Below are positions 8,847 to 19,331 of a DNA stretch of 36,345 bases, in pieces (positions within the stretch are counted from its first letter, which is position 1; every line of letters starts with the position of its first letter). The DNA comes from a virus. The DNA lies in IMG/VR virus record IMGVR_UViG_3300008116_000158, positions 1 through 36,345 of that record, one strand, 5' to 3'. The position numbers were made by a program, and so were the translations under genes. The notes under the pieces were generated by a model that ran no database searches, was not told the origin of the DNA, and saw only the letters and a list, made by a program, of their open reading frames with translations.

Positions 8847-9116
8847 ATGGCTAAATTATCAGCTAAAGAGCGTATGCTCAACGCATTAAAGAAGCAAGAC
8901 GGTTACAACACTTTTACAACTGCTCAAGCACAACGCCGTTTCGGCATCAGTAATGTTTCTGCTCGTATTGACGAACTACGTCAAGAAGGACATTGCATCT
9001 ATACCAACACTCGTAAAACTAGCGATGGACGTAAAGTTCATTACTATCGTTTAGGCACACCATCTAAAGCATTGGTTCAAGCTGCCTTACGTGCTGGATA
9101 TTCTTTCACAGCCTAA
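8847..9116 (+). CDS. Small winged-helix DNA-binding protein
   Basis: 89 residues, basic. The sequence reads as a helix-turn-helix/winged helix: an N-terminal helix (SAKERMLNALKK), then TTAQAQRRFGISNVSARIDELR as helices 2 and 3, and a beta wing (HCIYTNTRKTSDGRKVHYYRL). I chose ATG 8847 because GGAG (8835-8838) is placed correctly for it; an in-frame ATG at 8829 lacks such a site. It has its own promoter (8762) and terminator (9127), so it is a single-gene unit, as expected for a small regulator. Its targets are unknown; the palindrome at 8753 may be an autoregulatory site (inference). Confidence 0.8.
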   Translation: MAKLSAKERMLNALKKQDGYNTFTTAQAQRRFGISNVSARIDELRQEGHCIYTNTRKTSDGRKVHYYRLGTPSKALVQAALRAGYSFTA

Positions 9117-9126
9117 TTGAAGGTTT

Positions 9127-9156
9127 AGGGGAGGCCATTCGGCATCCCCTTTTTTT
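9127..9156 (+). terminator. Rho-independent terminator
   Basis: Stem AGGGGA (9127-9132) with TCCCCT (9145-9150), an inner GCC/GGC pairing around an ATTC loop, and seven T (9150-9156). It ends the winged-helix gene unit. Confidence 0.9.
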
Positions 9157-9171
9157 ATTCTCGGAGAACAA

Positions 9172-15210: not shown

Positions 15211-15287
15211 GGGCCTTTAGCTCAGTTGGTTAGAGCAGAGGACTCATAATCCTTTGGTCGTAGGTTCGAGTCCTACAAGGCCCACCA
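15211..15287 (+). tRNA. tRNA with CAU anticodon (Met, or Ile2 reading AUA)
   Basis: Clover-leaf: acceptor GGGCCTT/AAGGCCC, D arm AGCTC...GAGC, anticodon arm GAGGA-CTCATAA-TCCTT, T arm GTAGG-TTCGAGT-CCTAC, discriminator A, encoded CCA. The CAU anticodon is Met unless C34 is changed to lysidine. The GGGCCTTTAGCTCAG start and TTTGGTCG variable region look more like bacterial tRNA-Ile2 than elongator Met (memory comparison). A second CAU tRNA at 18264 makes an Ile2 role for this one attractive. Confidence 0.93.
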
Positions 15288-15292
15288 AAACT

Positions 15293-15739
15293 ATGAAACA
15301 AAAATTTATAAACGCTTACATGGATGTGGCAGAAAGATTTGCCAAGTTATCATCCGCCAAACGATTACAGGTTGGTGCTATCATTGTCAAAGATGATAGA
15401 ATCATATCCATTGGTTATAATGGTATGCCTGCCGGATGGACCAATGAGTGTGAAGAAGTGGTAGAAATACATGAGGATGGTGGAGTTGTCACCAAAACGA
15501 AGGACGAAGTGATCCACGCAGAGGCCAATGCCATCGCCAAACTGGCTAGAGGTAGTGAATCTGGAGATGGATCCACCATGTTCCTGACCCATGCTCCTTG
15601 TATTCATTGTGCTAAACAAGTCTATACCGCTGGTATTAGAAAGGTATATTACCGAAACTCCTATCGAGATACCATCGGCCTAGACTTCTTAAACAAATGT
15701 GGTGTTGAAATAGAACAAATTTCACCTGGTGAAATCTAG
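15293..15739 (+). CDS. dCMP deaminase
   Basis: 148 residues from ATG 15293. Converts dCMP to dUMP for dTTP synthesis. Zinc-site motifs HAE (75-77, H ligand plus catalytic Glu) and PCIHC (102-106) are intact; GAIIVKDDRIISIGYNGMP is the typical N-terminal segment. The ATG is only 5 bases past the tRNA CCA and no ribosome site is visible in the tRNA 3' end, so translation initiation here is unusual. The frame continues upstream into the tRNA (ATG-like start at 15254), which I reject. Confidence 0.93.
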   Translation: MKQKFINAYMDVAERFAKLSSAKRLQVGAIIVKDDRIISIGYNGMPAGWTNECEEVVEIHEDGGVVTKTKDEVIHAEANAIAKLARGSESGDGSTMFLTHAPCIHCAKQVYTAGIRKVYYRNSYRDTIGLDFLNKCGVEIEQISPGEI

Positions 15740-15789: not shown

Positions 15790-16329
15790 ATGCAACTCAG
15801 TATAATCGGATGTCCCGATAAGAAACGCTTTCGTCCTTACGTCAAGCGTGCGGCTATGTTTTATGCTGAACAATTAATGACACCAAAGATGTTAGAAAAC
15901 ATTTTTGTTCGTATTAAATTTGATCCTAAAATAGATGCTTTAGGATATGCTGAAGTTGTTAATTATAATGAAAGTAATAAACCTAGAGAATTTCAGATTG
16001 AATTAAATCCTTTGGCTGGGTCACATGACATATTAGAAACGTTAGCACACGAAATGGTGCATATTAAACAATATGCCTATGGTGAAACGAATGAATATGG
16101 TACCCGTTGGAGAGGACAAAGAATTAACACCGAAAATTTAGATTATTATAATGAACCATGGGAAGTAGAAGCTTACGGTGTGTCGGTTGGATTGTTTAGT
16201 AAATTTGCTATCAAAGAAAAATTGTGGGAAGTATTTTCAGATATTCGTAATCCAGATGCAGCTTTGATACCAGAGCCAATTGCTTGGCGAAATATACCAC
16301 AAATAAGTATTGACAATCAACCTATATAA
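15790..16329 (+). CDS. SprT-like zinc metallopeptidase
   Basis: 179 residues. HEMVHIKQ (87-94) supplies the HExxH zinc site, and a downstream E in WEVEAYG (about 143-149) fits the third ligand. The SprT/Spartan-type fold includes proteases acting on DNA-protein crosslinks, but phage relatives are untested. CAGGAG lies 7 bases ahead of the ATG. Follows dCMP deaminase with a 50-base gap. Confidence 0.8.
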   Translation: MQLSIIGCPDKKRFRPYVKRAAMFYAEQLMTPKMLENIFVRIKFDPKIDALGYAEVVNYNESNKPREFQIELNPLAGSHDILETLAHEMVHIKQYAYGETNEYGTRWRGQRINTENLDYYNEPWEVEAYGVSVGLFSKFAIKEKLWEVFSDIRNPDAALIPEPIAWRNIPQISIDNQPI

Positions 16330-16338
16330 TGTTACAAT
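16310..16338 (+). promoter_or_regulatory. Sigma70-like promoter at the tRNA cluster
   Basis: TTGACA (16310-16315), 17-base spacer, TACAAT (16333-16338); same hexamers as at 14573. It overlaps the end of the SprT-like gene. The expected start (16344-16347) falls on the first base of the tRNA-Gly-like gene. Confidence 0.8.
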
Positions 16339-16346
16339 TATTTCAT

Positions 16347-16416
16347 GCGGTCGGGGTATAGAACCAGAGTAGGTGTCCAACTTACTCACTTAGTGCGAAT
16401 CTAAGCCACCGCTCCA
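16347..16416 (+). tRNA. Divergent tRNA-Gly(UCC)-like gene with shortened D arm
   Basis: Only 70 bases. Acceptor GCGGTCG/CCACCGC (six of seven pairs; C-C mismatch at pair 6), discriminator T and encoded CCA, as in bacterial tRNA-Gly. Anticodon arm GTAGG-TGTCCAA-CTTAC gives anticodon UCC. T arm CTTAG-TGCGAAT-CTAAG. Departures: D arm reduced to GGT-ATAGA-ACC with no G18G19, base 33 is G in place of the near-universal U, base 55 is G in place of U, and the variable loop has 3 bases. It may be a decaying tRNA or one not used in ordinary translation. Confidence 0.6.
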
Positions 16417-16607: not shown

Positions 16608-16683
16608 GCCCTAATAGCTCAGTTGGTAGAGCAACTGATTTGTAATCAGTAGGTCCCGTGTTCGAGTCATGGTTGGGGCACCA
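16608..16683 (+). tRNA. tRNA-Thr(UGU)
   Basis: Acceptor GCCCTAA/TTGGGGC, D arm AGCTC...GAGC, anticodon arm CTGAT-TTGTAAT-CAG with anticodon TGT, T arm CCGTG-TTCGAGT-CATGG, discriminator A and encoded CCA. Eight bases after the small basic protein. Confidence 0.95.
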
Positions 16684-16687
16684 ATAT

Positions 16688-16763
16688 TGTCTTGTAGCTC
16701 AGTCGGTAGAGCAAATGACTGTTAATCATTGGGTCGCTGGTTCGAGCCCAGCCAAGACAGCCA
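16688..16763 (+). tRNA. tRNA-Asn(GUU)
   Basis: Acceptor TGTCTTG/CAAGACA, anticodon arm ATGAC-TGTTAAT-CAT with anticodon GTT, T arm GCTGG-TTCGAGC-CCAGC, discriminator G and encoded CCA. Four bases after tRNA-Thr. Confidence 0.95.
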
Positions 16764-16764
16764 T

Positions 16765-16841
16765 CCGAGTGTAGCGCAGCTTGGTAGCGCATCTGCTTTG
16801 GGAGCAGAGGGTCGTAGGTTCGAATCCTACCACTCGGACCA
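16765..16841 (+). tRNA. tRNA-Pro(UGG)
   Basis: Acceptor CCGAGTG/CACTCGG, D arm GCGC...GCGC, anticodon arm TCTGC-TTTGGGA-GCAGA with anticodon TGG, T arm GTAGG-TTCGAAT-CCTAC, discriminator A and encoded CCA. One base after tRNA-Asn. Confidence 0.95.
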
Positions 16842-16842
16842 A

Positions 16843-17448
16843 TTATACTTGTTCAGGAGAAGGATTCATAAAGTTTTCAATTAAAGTTGCAACGTCACCA
16901 TATTGGTAATCTTCAAGCATTTCAATTACCATATCAACTATTTGAATTTGACGTATGAAATTTTCTAATTCATTTTCATGGTTCTTTAATTGATTCTCAG
17001 CAAACATCTTTAATAGATTTTCACCTTGATCGTTCTTCTTTTTGATTTTTTTAATTATCTTCTTTAAACGAAATATATAACCATTACACATATTGATATT
17101 ATTGTTTATGTTTAGTTTTTCTCGTCTGCTTTCATTTTTCATGATGAGTATTAAATCATCAAGATCAGGATTAATATTTGGAAGTAAATTGAAGAATAGA
17201 CGGCTGAGTTGTTCTAGAGCTTGATCACGGAGACTTGTACCAGATTCGTAATGACCCGTTGTATCATATTTTTTTCTATTAACAGGATCACTCAAAACTT
17301 CATAGGCGTTTTTTATTTCCTTAAATAATTCAGGATCGCCGCCTTTATCTGGATGATGTTGCTGAGCAAGAGATTTGTATTTGGCTTTAATTTCTTCAAA
17401 TGTTGCATTTTTAGAAAGGCCTAAGATATCATATAGATTTTTATTCAT
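16843..17448 (-). CDS. J-domain (DnaJ-like) co-chaperone
   Basis: About 201 residues from the ATG at 17448. J domain in the first 65: NLYDILGLSKNATFEEIKAKY, HPD (32-34) and YEVLSDPVNRKKYD. No G/F-rich region or zinc-finger domain follows; the rest is charged and helical (KKIIKKIKKKNDQG), so this is a type III J-protein that could target host DnaK to a phage substrate (inference). An upstream in-frame ATG at 17472 would add MEFIINTF. A late promoter octamer lies at 17454-17461. It ends one base from tRNA-Pro on the other strand. Confidence 0.88.
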   Translation of the reverse strand: MNKNLYDILGLSKNATFEEIKAKYKSLAQQHHPDKGGDPELFKEIKNAYEVLSDPVNRKKYDTTGHYESGTSLRDQALEQLSRLFFNLLPNINPDLDDLILIMKNESRREKLNINNNINMCNGYIFRLKKIIKKIKKKNDQGENLLKMFAENQLKNHENELENFIRQIQIVDMVIEMLEDYQYGDVATLIENFMNPSPEQV

Positions 17449-17453
17449 AAATG

Positions 17454-17461
17454 TATTTATA
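17454..17461 (-). promoter_or_regulatory. Late promoter octamer for the J-domain gene
   Basis: TATAAATA on the minus strand. With T4 spacing the start would fall at about 17448, the A of the J-domain ATG, predicting a leaderless transcript. The same 13 bases separate it from the divergent glycosyltransferase start at 17462. Confidence 0.45.
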
Positions 17462-18175
17462 ATGAACTCCATACCAAAGATTGCACACGTTGCCTGGAAG
17501 ACTAAAGATGTGGTGAATAGTCAATCACCACTCATTCTCAATGGTCTACGTAATCTGATAGATATGAATCCAGACTGGAAGGTCACAGTATATGATGATA
17601 ATGAAATCGATGAATATCTTAGAACCACTTTAAACAAAAGAGATTACAATTTAATTAAAGATATACATATAGTTGAGAAAAGTGACCTCTGGAGGTTGTT
17701 TAAATTGTATGATGAAGGCGGTCTTTATATGGACATTGACCGATTTTACAATGTGCCTTTATCAGAAATTACAACCGATGGTATAAAATGTGTGCTACCA
17801 ACCTGTTTAGATTGGGATTTTTCACAAGACTTTATGTTGACCGAACCAAAAAATCCTATTCAAGCACAGACAATTGAACTAATCTTAAAAAGACGATATG
17901 AAGGACATACGAATGTTTTCTTTTTAGGACCACAAACATATATGCATGCAGTAACTATGGTATTATTTGGTGAAATGATTAATACAAATCCTGGTGTCGA
18001 AAAATTTAATGAGATGCGAAACTATATAGAGAAAATACCTTTTATTAAAACATACAGAGAAAGTCCTCCAAATGATACTGTAGTTTATAAAGGTGAAAAG
18101 ATTATAGATTGGGAAAACTTAAAAAGGCAGTTTTACGCTGAATCAAATATTAAACATTGGTCCGGAGAATGGTAA
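17462..18175 (+). CDS. OCH1-like glycosyltransferase (DXD sugar-binding family)
   Basis: 237 residues. IPKIAHVAWKTKD opens the fold, and EKSDLWRLFKLYDEGGLYMDIDRFY (73-96, key residues D91, D93) is the hallmark of the Gly_transf_sug family (PF04488), which includes OCH1-type mannosyltransferases and capsule enzymes. ATG 17462 is chosen because the homologous sequence begins there; the frame extends further upstream antisense to the J-domain gene. No clear ribosome site. Likely acts on a cell-surface or virion glycan. Confidence 0.88.
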   Translation: MNSIPKIAHVAWKTKDVVNSQSPLILNGLRNLIDMNPDWKVTVYDDNEIDEYLRTTLNKRDYNLIKDIHIVEKSDLWRLFKLYDEGGLYMDIDRFYNVPLSEITTDGIKCVLPTCLDWDFSQDFMLTEPKNPIQAQTIELILKRRYEGHTNVFFLGPQTYMHAVTMVLFGEMINTNPGVEKFNEMRNYIEKIPFIKTYRESPPNDTVVYKGEKIIDWENLKRQFYAESNIKHWSGEW

Positions 18176-18629: not shown

Positions 18630-19331
18630 TTATTTGAGTTTTGCTAATTTAAGTTTTTCTAATACTTTGATATAGAACCAACCTATATCTAGCTCAAACC
18701 ATTTCCTACTAAGCTTGGCAGAACTAGCATCGCTATGGTGATTATTATGAAGCTCTTCGCCACCAATAATAATACCAAGAGGGAAAATATTTCTAGATGA
18801 TTCTCTCGTTTCGACATTTCTATACCCCCAAAAATGACCTATACCATTAACAACACCTGCGGCCCAAAACGGAATCCACAACATCTGTATTAACCAAATC
18901 AACATACCCCAATAACCAAATAAAGCAAAGCATATTAAAAAGTAAATTGAAACACCCAAGTAATTTAAAGGTGTGTATAAATTCTTTTCGATAAAATCAT
19001 CTGGTGTGCCTTTGCCAAAAGAATTGACCATCAACTTATCTTTGGCTGCCGTATTATATAAAAGTGCTCCACCAAATAAAACTTTCCATATACCAAATAA
19101 TTGTGGTGAATGTGGATCACCTTTTTGGTCTGTCATACTGTGGTGTTTACGATGAATTGCTACCCATTCTTTTGTAACCATACCTGTGGTTAACCATAAC
19201 CAAAAACGAAAGAAATGATTTACTGCCGGATGAAATGTTACAGCAAGATGAGTTTGACTACGATGGAGATACAGAGTTACGGCGATGATTGTAAGATGTG
19301 TTGTTATCAGGACATAAATTAGTTCGTTCAT
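18630..19331 (-). CDS. Fatty acid desaturase
   Basis: 233 residues, an integral-membrane di-iron desaturase of the delta-9 acyl type. Histidine boxes: HRSQTH (23-28), HRKHH (60-64) and HNNHH (195-199), with membrane segments around 5-20, 40-52, 122-142 and 145-165. It inserts a double bond into acyl chains of membrane lipids. It is shorter than most relatives and begins about 20 residues before the first box, so one N-terminal helix pair is missing. The frame upstream has an early stop, so no extension is possible. No ribosome site seen. Likely a host-derived auxiliary gene. Confidence 0.9.
   Translation of the reverse strand: MNELIYVLITTHLTIIAVTLYLHRSQTHLAVTFHPAVNHFFRFWLWLTTGMVTKEWVAIHRKHHSMTDQKGDPHSPQLFGIWKVLFGGALLYNTAAKDKLMVNSFGKGTPDDFIEKNLYTPLNYLGVSIYFLICFALFGYWGMLIWLIQMLWIPFWAAGVVNGIGHFWGYRNVETRESSRNIFPLGIIIGGEELHNNHHSDASSAKLSRKWFELDIGWFYIKVLEKLKLAKLK

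Follow-up and report, generated by a model that had tools for sequence, protein, structure and literature searches.

The DNA analysed here (the window) comes from an uncultivated T4-like phage. The 36-kb fragment comprises positions 1–36,345 of the record IMGVR_UViG_3300008116_000158, and its DNA polymerase shares ~51% identity with cyanophage gp43. Between a protein-coding gene and a small open reading frame (ORF) that is followed by canonical tRNA genes lies a tRNA-Gly-like element with an adjoining promoter (Table 1). Searches of Pfam and PHROGs gave no match for the small ORF, which in many relatives sits between the element and the tRNAs and at one locus (L034) is present only as a fragment. 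Further genes near the tRNA cluster, at 15254–15739, 16843–17472, 17375–18175 and 18630–19331, encode a dCMP deaminase, a DnaJ-domain protein, a glycosyltransferase and a fatty acid desaturase, and are of metabolic or host type.

Table 1. Features at the tRNA-Gly-like locus (window coordinates; fractions of 51 refer to distinct class-A sequences).
Feature	Position	Strand	Remarks
Upstream gene	15790..16329	+	Weak SprT-like match (E 0.0015), below the curated cut-off
Sigma-70 type promoter	16310..16338	+	TTGACA 16310-16315, 17-nt spacer, TACAAT 16333-16338, TG before the -10 box
Predicted AU leader	16345..16346	+	Predicted start ~16345 (the A); ~2 nt; U(-1) and A(-2) conserved
tRNA-Gly-like RNA gene, class A, whole element	16347..16416	+	70 nt; model match 101 bits, the window sequence itself being part of that model
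Acceptor stem, 5' strand	16347..16353	+	GCGGUCG; pairs 1-5 kept in 51/51, pairs 1-3 invariant
D arm	16355..16365	+	GGU-AUAGA-ACC; 3 bp, without G18G19
Anticodon arm	16367..16387	+	7-bp stem; 7-nt loop UGUCCAA with G33
T arm	16389..16405	+	5-bp stem; loop UGCGAAU with G55; paired in 51/51, with compensatory changes
Acceptor stem, 3' strand, and tail	16406..16416	+	U73 at 16413; encoded CCA at 16414-16416
Small basic ORF, 54 aa	16435..16599	+	3' of the element; frequent but not constant partner
Canonical tRNA-Thr, tRNA-Asn, tRNA-Pro	16608..16841	+	Downstream of the element

The sequence-only reading of this locus had described a truncated tRNA-Gly with a CCA end, U73, anticodon UCC, a three-pair D arm without G18G19, G33 and G55, and all of these are in the sequence, with the loop UGUCCAA at 16374–16380 and UCC at 16376–16378. 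The cloverleaf and CCA of a canonical tRNA are thus present, the former with covariation support, while the U33, G18G19 and U55 of such a tRNA are not, class A having G33, no GG and G55 instead. In addition, the anticodon stem is 7 bp rather than the usual 5, the variable region is a single nucleotide, and the acceptor stem carries a C6-C mismatch. The cloverleaf is the unconstrained minimum-energy RNA fold (-24.8 kcal/mol, z -2.7), and 2 of 200 shuffled sequences folded as well. ARAGORN made no tRNA call at 16347–16416, and a covariance-model search with Rfam cmscan, including RF00005, gave no match there even at E 10, whereas five other tRNAs in the window were called by both. As a tRNA finder and an Rfam search both miss the element, it is probably absent from most annotations.

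The same reading had placed a TTGACA-N17-TACAAT promoter directly at base 1, leaving perhaps no leader for RNase P. The promoter holds up, matching the consensus at 11 of 12 positions, and it adjoins the element, ending 8 nt before base 1; the predicted start, however, is at the A two bases upstream, so that the leader would be short rather than missing. Spacing and position of the promoter in relatives are as in the window. Among distinct sequence contexts, a correctly spaced promoter scoring ≥9 of 12 was seen in 34/71 of class A, 25/33 of classes B/C/E and 20/47 of class D (the classes are described below), compared with 4–6% of shuffled upstream sequences. The two bases before the element are conserved with or without a promoter: of 151 distinct copies, 150 have T at -1 and 134 have A at -2. 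This fits a start at the A and/or cleavage by RNase P after U(-1), a base that is favourable for this enzyme. Some element copies, as in the phage genome G005, lack a separate promoter and lie within a tRNA cluster or at its end; such copies must therefore be released by a cut at the 5' end.

Using only the upstream protein as bait, we searched IMG/VR and thereby obtained loci that were not selected on the element itself. At ~50 of these loci the element lies at the equivalent place with TTGACA-N17-TATAxT or a near variant, and with the same unusual bases as in the window. Related phages carry this element at the site, and a normal tRNA-Gly, where there is one, is found next to it and does not replace it. 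By their anticodon and T loops the bait-found loci split into class A (UGUCCAA / UGCRAAU) and class B/C (ANNCCCU / WGCAWAG). Pattern scans extended this to three sequence classes (A, B/C and D), each present in >100 viral contigs, and the carriers overall are hundreds of uncultivated T4-like phage sequences, a recurrence far above what chance would give. Class D, which belongs to a second group of T4-like phages, has a GUCCGAGAC D arm, mostly a 4-nt anticodon loop and a UUUAACU T loop; its loci (L310, L325, L374 and others) have two constant flanking gene families, a 425-aa protein of no assigned function upstream and a ~770-aa protein with a GHEVGHALY motif downstream. More distant relatives have the element at other places, often within a tRNA cluster or directly adjoining a canonical tRNA-Gly(UCC).

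Classes also occur in tandem, a few bases apart (L209, L213, L250, L257, L258 and L314), in the orders D then A, A then C, and an E-like class then A, and look as if each had its own job. A covariance model built on class A (R2) did not detect class D at E 0.1, so that shared anatomy and the tandem pairs are the grounds for deriving A and D from a common ancestor. In class B/C, T-loop positions 54/58 read U-A, A-A or A-U, so that the bases of the usual reverse-Hoogsteen pair may have been exchanged. A different structure was seen on the minus strand of L166 (~9018–9167), where a long hairpin, GCGGAGUGCUUACAGG...CCUGUAAGUGCUCCGCUCCA, follows a tRNA-Gly and has tRNA-Gly-like acceptor ends and CCA with no cloverleaf.

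Among INPHARED isolates there was no match for class A, C or D, and model R2 gave only weak, tRNA-length matches in four cyanophages, the one inspected being an annotated tRNA-Trp. A bacterial origin was likewise discarded, as a scan of ~85,000 genomes returned eight pattern matches, all by chance and none with an acceptor stem. A literature search, with subscription journals mostly outside its coverage, found no description of the element family.

The stems of the element are maintained by selection. In 51 distinct class-A sequences, aligned without fitting to the structure, acceptor pairs 1–5, the T stem and the anticodon stem at each of its seven positions are paired in 50–51 of the 51, and many of the changes in these stems are compensatory. 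In relatives, D-arm pairs also switch, for example from GG/CC to UU/AA. The class-A search pattern included two loop cores, on which the ~50 bait-found loci had not been selected. In a further alignment of 51 model matches, which was fitted to the structure and comprises 47 class-A and four diverged copies, 97.4% of cells are paired; the covariation score is 0.559 and drops to ≤0.108 when the pairing partners are slid. All cells are paired in both class D (18 sequences) and class C (12 sequences), with covariation scores of 0.266 (slid control ≤0.084) and 0.388 (slid control ≤0.068), respectively. Across classes, 97–100% of pairs are kept, against 33–56% in slid controls. Kinship to tRNA-Gly is evident, since a second model (R1) also detects the phages' canonical tRNA-Gly(UCC), mostly at 28–35 bits, and this would suit a decaying tRNA-Gly or a sequencing artefact. 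However, the oddities are fixed in >100 contigs per class, the pairs are compensated and the promoter is kept, and the covariation in classes A, C and D excludes decay. The suggestion of a tRNA losing its function is accordingly refuted by the 51 distinct class-A sequences, which keep the oddities together with compensating stems, and decay or artefact can be given a negligible probability.

We then examined which single letters are conserved, using repeat scans in which the acceptor stem and discriminator were left free. For class A, 134 matches end in CCGCUCCA, and two more are true elements with GCGA, a compensating U and U73; the remaining matches have no acceptor stem. All 136 complete class-A copies therefore have G1-C72, C2-G71, G3-C70 and U73. 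In class B/C, 69 of 69 complete copies start with GCGG and have six acceptor pairs and U73, while in class D 69 of 69 start with GCGGU or GCGGA and have five pairs and U73, pair 5 covarying. The anticodon region was also free in the D scan, and CC was present in the loop of 69/69, although numbering within 4-nt loops is ambiguous. Common to all classes are hence G1-C72, C2-G71, G3-C70, U73-CCA and CC in the anticodon loop; the search pattern prescribed this CC for A and B/C and left it free only for D. Positions 33 and 34 are not constant, either across the classes or inside one class; the T-loop sequence is class-dependent, and GG is never present in the D loop of any class.

The identity set of glycyl-tRNA synthetase (GlyRS) consists of N73, pairs 1–3, C35 and C36 (PMC3990555), and the element carries the G1-C72, C2-G71, G3-C70 and U73 expected of a substrate for a bacterial GlyRS of the U73 type. 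Agreement with these determinants may be explained in part by descent from tRNA-Gly, but the letters read by GlyRS appear to have stayed while comparable letters did not. We infer that a GlyRS of this type would charge the RNA with glycine, which is the best supported of the functional steps, although the 4-nt anticodon loops of most class-D copies may not be read by the enzyme. The toxSAS toxin FaRel2 also selects tRNA-Gly, by G1-C72, C2-G71, G4-C69 and Pu5-Py68, and does not read pair 3 (PMC11559606); class A has pairs 1, 2 and mostly 4 of this set, but at pair 5 U-A is present in 34 of the 51 sequences. On sequence grounds, the GlyRS set is the better fit to the conservation of the element.

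Translation is a poor fit to the same data. U55 is absent in A and B/C, where the anticodon stem is 7 bp, and decoding is hard to imagine, judging from the lack of a consistent U33 (G33 in A, variable positions 33 and 34 in B/C), the lack of G18G19 and the 4-nt loops of most class-D copies. With its intact cloverleaf and, in class A, a UCC anticodon, the element could be a minimal but working tRNA-Gly comparable to the reduced tRNAs of animal mitochondria, but the same anticodon-arm features argue against this, as does the normal tRNA-Gly(UCC) that is often next door, and we consider it highly improbable. Two genomes (G001 and G005) have two or three normal tRNA-Gly genes besides the element; it is also kept in records of 146 kb (G006) and 124 kb (G007) with one and no ARAGORN tRNA, respectively, both of which may be incomplete.

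Taken together, we think it somewhat probable that the element is a selected, glycine-charged, non-translating RNA, and the non-translational role raised by the sequence-only reading is to this extent supported by inference. If decoding is lost and identity kept, the RNA should act solely through its charged acceptor end. In the mechanism we propose, a truncated tRNA-Gly mimic, retained by phages under selection, would be expressed either as part of a tRNA operon or from a strong promoter of its own; its short AU leader would possibly be trimmed by RNase P, and its CCA is encoded. Host GlyRS would charge the mimic with glycine through the kept identity set, and the charged RNA would fail on the ribosome, giving a pool of glycyl-RNA outside translation. 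This pool may act as a decoy for factors that recognise the acceptor end of Gly-tRNA, for instance GNAT toxins specific for it. Gly-tRNA is the target of most GNAT toxins characterised so far, and TacT recognises the glycyl group as well as the acceptor stem (PMC9177977). A charged RNA of no use in translation could serve as such a decoy at little cost to the phage. The decoy role, which the sequence-only reading had listed, is our leading guess, but it is a conjecture that we hold only tentatively.

Alternatively, the charged RNA could be a glycine donor, feeding a phage or host transferase that glycylates a non-ribosomal target, as happens for cell wall bridges in Staphylococcus, where charging is likewise kept and translation lost and where the isoacceptors also replace G18G19 (PMC4052509). 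No constant partner enzyme was found near the element, however, and 12 large phage contigs contained no FemAB (PF02388), Acetyltransf_6 (PF13480), Leu/Phe-transferase (LFTR) or D-aminoacyl-tRNA deacylase (DTD) domain, with a GNAT domain in only two of the 12; a phage-encoded glycine transferase of known type is therefore unlikely, and we regard the donor role in general as having a low probability. The apparent conservation of all GlyRS contacts and the frequent strong promoter would also suit an RNA that occupies host GlyRS and so reduces or adjusts the charging of tRNA with glycine. Against such titration, the phage itself needs glycine and often encodes normal tRNA-Gly genes, and a CCA that is encoded in every case speaks for a substrate more than for a mere binder, which makes this a rather unlikely role.

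The intergenic position and U(-1), which suits RNase P, are in keeping with a tRNA-like fold that only marks cuts by RNase P and 3' enzymes in polycistronic transcripts, comparable to the t-elements of plant mitochondria, which have a processing role and are likewise tRNA-like cloverleaves that are not tRNAs. Unlike t-elements, the phage element keeps a synthetase identity set and an encoded CCA; a processing tag has no need of GlyRS letters or an anticodon arm, and a promoter adjoining base 1 leaves a 5' cut nearly pointless, all of which renders this reading improbable. Three further candidates were rejected. No covariation links the loop GUCC to its possible pairing partner, the ribosome-binding site GGAC downstream, since the B-class loops change while the site is constant. 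Regulation of the small ORF from its 5'-UTR does not account for elements that directly precede tRNAs or end a tRNA cluster, and a small ORF from the ATG before GCGG would meet a TGA at codon three in most of the B/C and D copies and is not a conserved gene.

Of known systems, the nearest functional precedent for a glycine-charged RNA of this kind is the non-proteinogenic tRNA-Gly of Staphylococcus aureus, in which charging is kept, G18G19 is replaced and the RNA is considered to stay outside translation (PMC4052509). The phage element shares the replacement of G18G19, with no GG in any class, but is shorter, without U33/U55 and with a 7-bp anticodon stem or a mini-loop, and while the staphylococcal isoacceptors feed the FemXAB cell wall enzymes, no partner enzyme was found for the phage element. 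The canonical tRNA-Gly(UCC) of phages has the same acceptor (GCGG...CCGC-UCCA), C35C36 where the element has CC in the anticodon loop, a detectable similarity and often an adjacent gene; in contrast to the element it has a full D arm, U33, a TUC T loop and a length of ~74 nt, and is recognised by ARAGORN. Phage tRNAs that evade tRNA-targeting defences (PMC10264068) are likewise phage-encoded and offer a possible link to counter-defence, but these are working, insensitive tRNAs, whereas the element is apparently unable to decode.

Whether phage tRNAs are codon helpers or instruments of counter-defence is debated, and in this element decoding is seemingly lost while synthetase identity is kept in three divergent classes. 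The family may represent a widespread and as yet undescribed class of phage RNA, glycine-charged and barred from the ribosome, that provides glycylated decoys or donors for enzymes directed at Gly-tRNA, a suggestion we make with some reserve; counter-defence against toxins that disable Gly-tRNA would be its most attractive form, as a conjecture. The family thus offers a testable case of phages using aminoacyl-RNA for purposes other than translation, and suggests that Gly-tRNA is a molecule over which phage and host compete.
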